Position numbers and translations under genes: made by a program. 64,000 nt of DNA from Haloarchaeobius salinus (GTDB taxonomy: Archaea; Halobacteriota; Halobacteria; Halobacteriales; Natrialbaceae). The stretch lies in NCBI RefSeq assembly GCF_024464185.1, contig NZ_JANHAU010000002.1:620001-684000 (forward strand). The letters are read 5' to 3'. Under the pieces are notes generated by a model, which saw only the letters and a list, made by a program, of their open reading frames with translations, searched no databases and had not been told where the DNA came from. Of the stretch, positions 3,947-48,562 are shown in pieces; the first letter of the stretch is position 1; every line of letters begins with the position of its first letter.

Positions 3947-5044
3947 TCATTCGACCAGTTCGTCGCTGGCGGCGCGGGCGGCCGCGGCGACGTCCCCCGG
4001 CGAGAACGCCACGTCGTCCCAGGCGGGGAGCCGGGTGTCGGTCCGGGGCGGGCGGACCGAGCCGGCGTAGGCGTCGACCTGCTCGCGCTCGCCCGCCACG
4101 TCGTAGTCGAGGCCGTTGAACCGTGCGTCGGCGGCGTACTGCCGGACGAGGGTGTCGGCGGCCGTGCGGTAGCGGTCGGGCAGCGTCCCGAAGTCGGGGT
4201 CGAGTCCGTGGTCGCCGAGCGCGTTGAACAGCGCCTGTCCGACCTGGTCGGCCATGTCCGAGAGCCCCGTCGGCCCCGACACCGAGCGGTGGTCGTGCTC
4301 GTGCCGGCCGAGGTCGACCTGTGCGGTGCCAGCGAAACCGGCGTACTCGTACGCGTCAGAGAGCATCCCGACCTCCAGCCCGAAGGCGCGCTGGGCGCGG
4401 ACGGTCCGGGCGAGGTCGGCGGTCATGGCGAACTCGCCGGCGAGCGCGTAGCGGAAGGCGTCGAGGTAGTCGAGGAACGGGTGGTCGTGTTCGTCGTCGA
4501 GCGCGCGCACCAGCGGCGTGAAGAACAGTCGGAACAGCCGGCCGTAGAGCTGGTTGTTCTCGACGCGGGCGTAGTAGCCCTTCGAGAACTCGAACTCCCC
4601 GGCGACGGGGGCGAGCAGTCGGGGGACGTGGCGCTCGGAGTAGGTCTTCGCGTCCGCGTCGTGGACGACGACGTAGTCGGCCGCCTCCGCCGCCACCCCC
4701 AGCGCGAGCCACACGTCCCGGCCCTTCCCGAAGCCGTTGTCGAGGCCGTGTTCGGCCAGCAGCTCGGTGACGCGGTCGGCCGAGCACCACAGCAGCTCCA
4801 CGTCGAGGTCGAACGAGTCGAGCCACGCGTGGAAGTCCGGCACGCGCTCGGCCGGGGCGCGCAGCGGCACGACGACCGCGGCGGGGTCGACCGCGGCGAG
4901 CGTCGTCAGCACCCGCTCCGCGGCGAGGCCGGCGTACTCCCGTTCGGTCATCGGGACGACGACGGCCGCGCGGTCGGTCGGCGCGTCCGGCGTCGGGTCG
5001 GTGAGGTCGTGCAGCGTGGCGACCCGCTCCTGGACGTACTCCAT
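3947..5044 (-). CDS. GT2/GT81-type glycosyltransferase, glucosyl-3-phosphoglycerate synthase-like
   Basis: A 365-residue nucleotide-sugar transferase with a GT-A fold. Key elements are an N-terminal VVVPMTERE strand, NGFGKGRDVW (the glycine-lysine loop that contacts phosphoglycerate in GpgS proteins), and the metal-binding YVVVHDADAKTY with its D-x-D. A mid region LAGEFAMTADLARTVR and a C-terminal helical part also match the GpgS/MpgS group. Such enzymes make glucosyl-3-phosphoglycerate, precursor of the compatible solute glucosylglycerate or of polysaccharide starters. No phosphatase gene lies next to it, so its product use is inferred only. The ATG at 5044 is preferred to an adjacent GTG. 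Confidence 0.72.
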   Translation of the reverse strand: MEYVQERVATLHDLTDPTPDAPTDRAAVVVPMTEREYAGLAAERVLTTLAAVDPAAVVVPLRAPAERVPDFHAWLDSFDLDVELLWCSADRVTELLAEHGLDNGFGKGRDVWLALGVAAEAADYVVVHDADAKTYSERHVPRLLAPVAGEFEFSKGYYARVENNQLYGRLFRLFFTPLVRALDDEHDHPFLDYLDAFRYALAGEFAMTADLARTVRAQRAFGLEVGMLSDAYEYAGFAGTAQVDLGRHEHDHRSVSGPTGLSDMADQVGQALFNALGDHGLDPDFGTLPDRYRTAADTLVRQYAADARFNGLDYDVAGEREQVDAYAGSVRPPRTDTRLPAWDDVAFSPGDVAAAARAASDELVE

Positions 5045-47506: not shown

Positions 47507-47893
47507 CCGCGGTTGGCGGTTCGAGGGGTCCGTTTTCCGGTGCGTCGTCTCGGTCGGTGCAGGTAACTCCGCTAGTGTCTGTAGTCCGAATAGAGCCGGT
47601 GAAAGCCCGATGCCAGCGGTTGAGGGTGTCCCTCGTGATACTGCTGAGCGGCTGGTAGTTGTCTGATGGCGAGCATTCCCGCGACAGGTCCGATGACTCC
47701 GACACCGACGTCCACTTTCGTCCCGGGATCCTGGGCCGTACCTACGCCACCCCGTGGCCAGTTGCTGGATGTCGGGCACGCTCAGACGTTGCCCCGTCGA
47801 TGACTCAGTACAGTCAGTATGAGCGGTGACCGACAATCCACGACGGATCGGAAGTTAACACATATATCAGACAACCGTGTGCTCCTACGTTAC
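47507..47893. other. Gene-free stretch with a possible decayed coding remnant
   Basis: No intact gene is found in these 387 nt. On the minus strand one frame ending at a TAG near 47577 reads GTKVDVGVGVIGPVAGMLAIR and then QLPAAQQYHEGHPQPLASGF without a good start codon. This has more normal protein character than the neighbouring frames and may be the remnant of a lost gene or mobile element. The end next to the TFS gene holds AT-rich bases around 47865-47880 (TTAACACATATATCA), the likely TFS promoter. Confidence 0.3.
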
Positions 47894-48211
47894 ATGCAAT
47901 TCTGTGACGGGTGTGGTTCGATCATGCACACGGAGGGCGACACGTGGGTGTGTCGCTCCTGTGAGAACGAGGAGCCACGGGACTCGCAAGCAGAAGCGGC
48001 GATGACGACCCAGGATGGACAGCGGGACGACGGGTCACCCGACGTGGCCGACGCGACCCAGGGATCCACCGAGACGATGCAGGAGCCCTGTCCGGCGGAC
48101 GACTGCGATAGCGACCGGGCCTACTACGAGATGATGCCGAAGCCGGGCGGCTCCTACGAGGTCCGGCTGTTCACCTGCGTCGAGTGCGGCCAGAAGTGGC
48201 GCGAGTCCTGA
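47894..48211 (+). CDS. Transcription factor S (TFS)-like zinc-ribbon protein, catalytic acidic pair missing
   Basis: A 105-residue protein with two zinc ribbons like those of TFS and RPB9. Cysteines 4, 7, 20 and 23 make the N-terminal ribbon and 66, 71, 95 and 98 the C-terminal one, ending CVECGQKWRES as in the family. Between them is an acidic, flexible linker. In cleavage-stimulating TFS the hairpin of the C-terminal ribbon carries an Asp-Glu pair; here this hairpin reads MMPKPGGSYEVRLFT and has no Asp-Glu. It may bind RNA polymerase without cleavage activity. The ATG at 47894 begins the first ribbon. Confidence 0.85.
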   Translation: MQFCDGCGSIMHTEGDTWVCRSCENEEPRDSQAEAAMTTQDGQRDDGSPDVADATQGSTETMQEPCPADDCDSDRAYYEMMPKPGGSYEVRLFTCVECGQKWRES

Positions 48212-48562
48212 CGGCGCATCTCGCGGACCCCGCCGTTGGCACATGCACAGACCGCCACAGCAGCGTCTCAACTCCCTGGGTTACTCGGTCTCGGAGCCAC
48301 ACGCCGACGCCAAACCGGCTCCCACGACGTTCTCGAGGCGATCACCGACCTCTGTCACGAGAGCCGTCGTTGGAACACGCTATCTCCAGAGACGGAACCG
48401 AACACGGGCAGTGTTCGGACTCCTCGGTAACCCAGACCACCCGACTCGCAGACCCGCTCAACAGCCGATTCGCCCGTCTCCAGTTGAATCTACCACCGAC
48501 GCGACTCCACCACGCTCACCCGCGAACGCAACCCCTAAATTCCACAACCCGAAGATAGAGGC
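48212..48562. other. Gene-free stretch before mfnA
   Basis: Nothing convincing is encoded in these 351 nt on either strand; frames are Arg/Ser-rich. CCTAAAT near 48532-48538, about 26 nt upstream of the mfnA ATG, is a plausible TATA-like box. A long run without strong GC codon periodicity (48290-48500) suggests a non-coding region. Confidence 0.5.

Follow-up and report, generated by a model that had tools for sequence, protein, structure and literature searches.

The window analysed here, a stretch of 64,000 nucleotides from Haloarchaeobius salinus, contains a gene for a small protein of the TFS family, here called TFS-X. The gene and the features around it are as follows.

47894..48211, plus strand: TFS-X coding sequence of 105 amino acids; the frame is open, its translation agrees with the one given earlier, and its scores against Pfam and NCBIfam profiles are given below.
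47835..47893, plus strand: conserved, promoter-like upstream stretch, found in the consensus of 96 upstream regions; blastn blocks start at about 47835-47841 in many loci.
47860-47873, plus strand: TATA-like ACATATATCAGACA, from the upstream consensus of 96 regions, with one match only within the window.
48212..48235, plus strand: conserved short stretch 3' of the stop, perhaps terminator-like, with recurrent right ends at 48231-48235 and a downstream consensus.
47563..48481 (approximate), no strand: foreign-looking shared DNA block around TFS-X, 84-87% identical to other genera and with recurrent ends.

The N-terminal ribbon of TFS-X contains C4, C7, C20 and C23 and is followed by an acidic linker and a C-terminal ribbon with C66, C71, C95 and C98, whose hairpin has the tip P82-K-P-G-G-S-Y-E89. 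The sequence-only reading described both ribbons as intact, and all eight cysteines are indeed present, which indicates two Cys4 ribbons of the RPB9/TFIIS type; a detail it missed is the C-x4-C spacing of the C-terminal knuckle (CPADDC). The N-terminal ribbon scores above the cut-off of Pfam Zn_ribbon_RPB9 (PF02150; 32.8 bits, cut-off 25.2) and the C-terminal ribbon below that of Zn_ribbon_TFIIS (PF01096; 12.9 bits, cut-off 21). The curated threshold of NCBIfam TFS_arch (37.9 bits, cut-off 64.75) is not reached, nor is that of NCBIfam TFS4 (NF047723; 24.5 bits, cut-off 120). A longer open reading frame starting at 47819 is unlikely to be the one translated, and ATG 47894 is favoured because the relatives and the conserved TATA-like site agree with it.

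In the window gene the hairpin of the second ribbon is EMMPKPGGSYEVRLF, in which MPKPGGSYE replaces Q..R.ADE; the canonical haloarchaeal TFS hairpin is Q(I/T).(S/A)ADE or a near form. Both catalytic acids (Asp-Glu) and the conserved Q..R are missing; the hairpins of the DE-bearing sister described below and of the canonical paralogue B are one residue longer. Because 96 distinct full-length genes have this same tip, the hairpin PKPGGSYEV without an Asp-Glu pair, as first read from the window alone, is confirmed and its origin in chance or sequencing error is excluded. Residues P82, K83, P84, G85, G86, S87 and E89 are invariant in 96/96 of these genes while their codons vary, with the reservation that this set, like the larger one of 115 relatives, was chosen by the presence of PKPGG and may therefore be biased at the tip. 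None of the 96 genes differs in the four C-ribbon cysteines either. Among the 115 clade relatives, which include same-copy duplicates fetched twice (13 pairs noted) and overlapping plasmid records, all have PKPGG and the C-x4-C knuckle and none has ADE; the 45 canonical proteins, taken from the H. salinus genome and its relatives, all have ADE, and 44 of them have C-x2-C. Partial matches not beginning at residue 1 (for example, L120, L122 and L123) were dropped from the sets. PKPGG is absent from the ADE-bearing relatives and from just three other genes, which are truncated or stop early; no intact clade member lacks it. Residues 80-94 have a mean dN/dS of 0.10, lower than the C-ribbon (0.21), the whole gene (0.23) and the linker (0.28). 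The replacement tip is held by strong purifying selection and, being the most constrained part of TFS-X, is not a product of decay. Its net charge is 0, compared with -2 in the canonical paralogues, its single lysine is flanked by two prolines, and the net charge of the C-ribbon is about -2.6.

Three genes of the TFS family were found above chance in the H. salinus genome, the window gene and two others.

C1:900649: canonical TFS paralogue A, ADE present.
C2:534315: canonical TFS paralogue B, ADE present.

TFS-X is 34% identical to paralogue A and 46% identical to paralogue B. A paralogue count and alignment had been proposed as a check on the window gene, and its outcome is that TFS-X is not the sole TFS of its genome, since two ADE-bearing canonical genes coexist with it. 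In a tree of 70 proteins (98 columns, tip columns excluded) TFS-X is monophyletic with branch support of 100/99. Its nearest outgroup is a DE-bearing protein with a C-x4-C knuckle from Halorarius litoreus (L121). At this locus two C-x4-C TFS genes lie in tandem (4001-4315 and 4407-4733): an X gene, which lacks the acidic pair, and directly downstream of it the DE-bearing gene. A DE-bearing, C-x2-C protein from a Halobaculum roseum plasmid (L266:1501-1827) forms a further outgroup, less surely placed because of its long branch, with paralogue B beyond it. The tree suggests that the C-x4-C spacing came first and the loss of the acidic pair second. On this phylogeny the PKPGG tip is of single origin, and TFS-X arose within haloarchaeal TFS, apart from TFS4.

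TFS-X is predicted to fold into two modules resembling zinc ribbons, the tip lying between strands 75-81 and 90-95. Confidence is middling (mean pLDDT 73.4, pTM 0.40, tip block approximately 63), and the DE-bearing sister is predicted to be similar. The best structural matches are small zinc-ribbon subunits of Pol I, II and III and TFIIS, with Z of 4-6, and TFS4 (7oqy) matches with Z of 4.2; the tool calls the range 4-6 common, and the fold is therefore supported, not proven. By sequence, C11/RPC10 and RPB9 are the nearest relatives of TFS-X with a solved structure.

Intact-looking TFS-X was found in 33/125 genomes of the family (36 copies, at most three per genome, 79-100% identity), including three of the six in the window's genus, and a broken copy in at least one further genome. 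The DNA pattern of the tip was found in 129/392 genomes of the order, representing 49/95 genera, with 0 for the reversed-pattern control among the matches listed. Across a phylum-wide sample of 392 genomes there are 26 matches at E 1e-30, and every one belongs to the order of the window's genome, which is itself among them. Between genera, identity at fourfold sites is 82.3% for TFS-X and 52.4% for paralogue A in the same genomes, and 82.5% and 57.3% in the corresponding comparison with paralogue B; in each comparison (13 genomes each) TFS-X is above the canonical paralogue in 68/68 pairs. A DNA tree of 75 rows was built from the window and 74 of the 80 named loci (without L113 and L120-L124). 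Its family labels require 30 changes, against a minimum of 7 and a mean of 39.2 after shuffling, so that some clustering by family remains; support is poor for most branches. Judged from these comparisons, TFS-X is a horizontally spread accessory gene that has undergone recent, repeated transfer. Several copies are broken (L113, L124, L141, L176, L178 and L267), and the gene is therefore dispensable. The truncated remnant in pNRC200 of Halobacterium salinarum NRC-1 (L141:7001-7242) lies where the annotated feature is a small 'ATP-binding protein'. A viral gene was also considered and rejected, as comparisons with phages and viral contigs gave no match for TFS-X; there was one weak PHROG match.

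Approximately 0.8 kb around TFS-X shares 84-87% DNA identity with loci of other genera (L022, L017 and L059). The shared block has recurrent ends at 47563 and 48481, and other loci end elsewhere, down to the promoter and gene alone. No terminal repeats were recognised by eye in the outer parts of the alignment, and with ends that vary among loci a transposon carrying TFS-X was rejected. Window positions 47507-48562 form a small variable spot whose gene content changes from one species of the genus to another. It is flanked by what we take to be a phosphoenolpyruvate-synthase-like gene and a decarboxylase-like gene, and in congeners without TFS-X it contains a metalloprotease-like or lipoprotein-like gene instead. 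Because these congeners offer no empty site, no target-site duplication is readable.

The window copy is on a contig of 1.13 Mb, and plasmid-type neighbours are absent from its 20 kb region. When 36 proteins were tried as neighbours, no family went beyond 5/38 TFS-X regions (40 control regions). All-against-all clustering gave DUF7504 as the most frequent non-TFS family, in 5/38 TFS-X regions and 0/40 controls, where the controls were hand-picked on the same contigs and the gene calls came from a rough script instead of a gene finder. DUF7504 proteins near TFS-X include L137:11192-11881, L167:2936-3625 and L140:10545-11213. A fixed gene neighbourhood was rejected for most copies, as no neighbour family exceeds 5/38 regions. 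RNase J is near TFS-X in just 3/38 whole-genome regions, compared with 1/40 controls, and we therefore regard the window copy as of the stand-alone sort.

Full TFS-X is also present on 18 plasmid records, where its usual annotation is RNA polymerase subunit M. The recurrent neighbours there, in shuffled order and orientation, are RNase J, RNase Z, aCPSF1/FttA, macro-domain and amphi-Trp proteins, DUF5786 and MFS transporters; TBP, aIF1A and NUDIX or NAD-metabolism genes are occasional members. The shuffled set is seen in L261, L262, L263, L264, L265 and L133-L140, and an ADP-ribosylglycohydrolase occurs in L153, a genome region similar to the plasmid set. This RNase J is found on 18 plasmid records, nine of which also carry TFS-X, in 9/9 cases 0.8-7.6 kb away (midpoints). 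Fisher's test gives p 1.5e-7 under uniform and independent placement, a value that is too optimistic, as are all the linkage p-values, because the plasmids share ancestry (in two Halorussus records RNase J is nearly identical). Two of the nine RNase J genes beside TFS-X are not whole: one is split into four pieces and the other is a 30% fragment. RNase Z and TFS-X are 0.8-15.8 kb apart in five plasmid records, aCPSF1 and TFS-X 4.8-19.3 kb apart in seven, and a macro-domain gene is within 11 kb in 5/7 records and far off in 2/7. The Orc1 control, which covers the 60 records listed out of 273, gives five with both genes (p 0.062). The KH domain of FttA is present in the plasmid aCPSF1.

TFS-X shares with canonical TFS (TFS1 and the haloarchaeal paralogues A and B) two zinc ribbons, an acidic linker and a similar length, and differs in having lost Asp-Glu and Q..R, in a hairpin one residue shorter than that of paralogue B and in its C-x4-C knuckle. 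The sequence-only reading likened it to TFS4 of Sulfolobus. What stands of this is that TFS-X, like TFS4, is a paralogue without the acidic pair, additional to canonical TFS and of accessory distribution. The direct analogy does not stand: the TFS4 type is recognised by a hairpin that is shorter and carries two or three lysines, and TFS-X has one lysine and no lysine cluster, its tip is neutral, its origin is independent and it is horizontally mobile. Inhibition by TFS4 depends on three lysines, according to PMC5715097. The likeness to TFS4 is in kind only. With RPB9, A12.2 and C11 it shares the two-ribbon plan, and RPB9 is likewise without cleavage activity; unlike these subunits TFS-X is dispensable. 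The bacterial factors DksA, TraR and Gfh1 resemble it in the mode of action that we propose, regulation by occupying the NTP-entry channel, but their folds are unrelated and their polymerase is bacterial. TraR is plasmid-borne.

In the mechanism we propose, the N-ribbon of TFS-X would dock on RNA polymerase and place the hairpin of the C-ribbon in the NTP-entry funnel. With no Asp-Glu, the metal site for transcript cleavage could not be completed by TFS-X, and as a non-cleaving protein it would compete with the two canonical TFS, so that the polymerase would be slowed, paused or inhibited, presumably where TFS-X is conditionally expressed. Pausing or inhibition from the funnel seems the most likely outcome because of what PMC5715097, PMC8448823 and PMC7289017 describe for known TFS, TFS4 and cleavage-dead mutants. 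PMC5715097 reports impaired processivity with the cleavage-dead TFS1-AA and a dominant-negative, inhibitory effect of TFIIS-AA and of GreA mutants. We lean, by a little, towards TFS-X being a protein that occupies the polymerase funnel without promoting cleavage and acts as a pausing factor or inhibitor, and it probably controls the polymerase instead of rescuing it. The C-x4-C knuckle could change the ribbon enough to prevent entry into the funnel.

A leading sub-case, or else a rival, is that TFS-X is a dedicated global inhibitor like TFS4, switched on upon virus infection or stress and leading to dormancy. The shared architecture, the loss of Asp-Glu, a hairpin shorter by one residue than that of its DE-bearing sister and the precedent of TFS4 itself (PMC5715097 and PMC8448823) speak for it. 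Binding of TFS4 needs a basic C-ribbon, according to PMC8448823, whereas TFS-X has no lysine cluster, a tip of charge 0 and a C-ribbon of about -2.6; it is also of separate origin, and its protein has no match in PADLOC (2023 library) at E 0.01. We therefore consider this possible but doubtful. That TFS-X is instead a positive or neutral accessory subunit like RPB9 or A12, with a role in fidelity, elongation or promoter choice, would fit its nearest solved relatives by sequence, C11/RPC10 and RPB9, and the description of RPB9 in PMC5715097 as a stable subunit that has lost cleavage activity. Its sporadic presence (33/125; 129/392) and its broken copies suit an accessory regulator better, and we think such a subunit unlikely. 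It is very improbable that TFS-X is a selfish or hitch-hiking gene whose role at the polymerase is gone: it is mobile, sporadic and sometimes broken, yet dN/dS is 0.23 overall and 0.10 at the tip and the second-ribbon cysteines are identical in 96/96.

The plasmid neighbours raise another reading, a kit for RNA termination and decay in which TFS-X keeps the polymerase paused, FttA/aCPSF1 cuts and RNase J degrades. The proximity to RNase J in 9/9 plasmid records with both genes points this way, as do the closeness of RNase Z and aCPSF1 and the FttA KH domain. For the C11 and A12 ribbons a state inside the funnel is implicated in termination by PMC8448823, which would suit the linkage to FttA and RNase J. 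Against it, RNase J accompanies TFS-X in 3/38 whole-genome regions and 1/40 controls, the order and orientation of the neighbours are shuffled, and shared plasmid ancestry inflates the p-values; we would not expect it to hold. A broader version, in which haloarchaeal megaplasmids carry a shuffled, transferable spare set for transcription and RNA processing (TFS-X, a paralogue of FttA/aCPSF1, RNase J, RNase Z and macro-domain proteins, at times TBP and aIF1A), with TFS-X as the member that acts on the polymerase, pausing that of the host from the funnel to bring about termination and degradation and the stand-alone chromosomal copies as escapees, strikes us as quite improbable. If true, TFS-X would parallel in archaea, in its logic, the secondary-channel regulators carried by plasmids.

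Proteins of the two-ribbon TFS kind and non-cleaving paralogues are already known, and tfs-like genes are described as multiplied in Halobacteria in PMC5715097. Our literature search, in which subscription journals were thinly covered, found nothing on the TFS-X gene in haloarchaea; as far as that literature goes, this mobile clade, with a C-x4-C ribbon and a neutral tip that does not vary, is new. In the literature cited here TFS4 is the one non-cleaving archaeal TFS paralogue whose function is described, and TFS-X would add a second, independently evolved case. The invariant tip raises the question of what a funnel-entering hairpin does without acidic or basic residues. The tandem pair of Halorarius litoreus (L121) allows a direct comparison with and without the acidic pair, and the carriers of TFS-X are many species of an order containing tractable genera such as Haloferax. 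The linkage to FttA, RNase J and RNase Z suggests a testable tie between occupancy of the polymerase funnel and termination.
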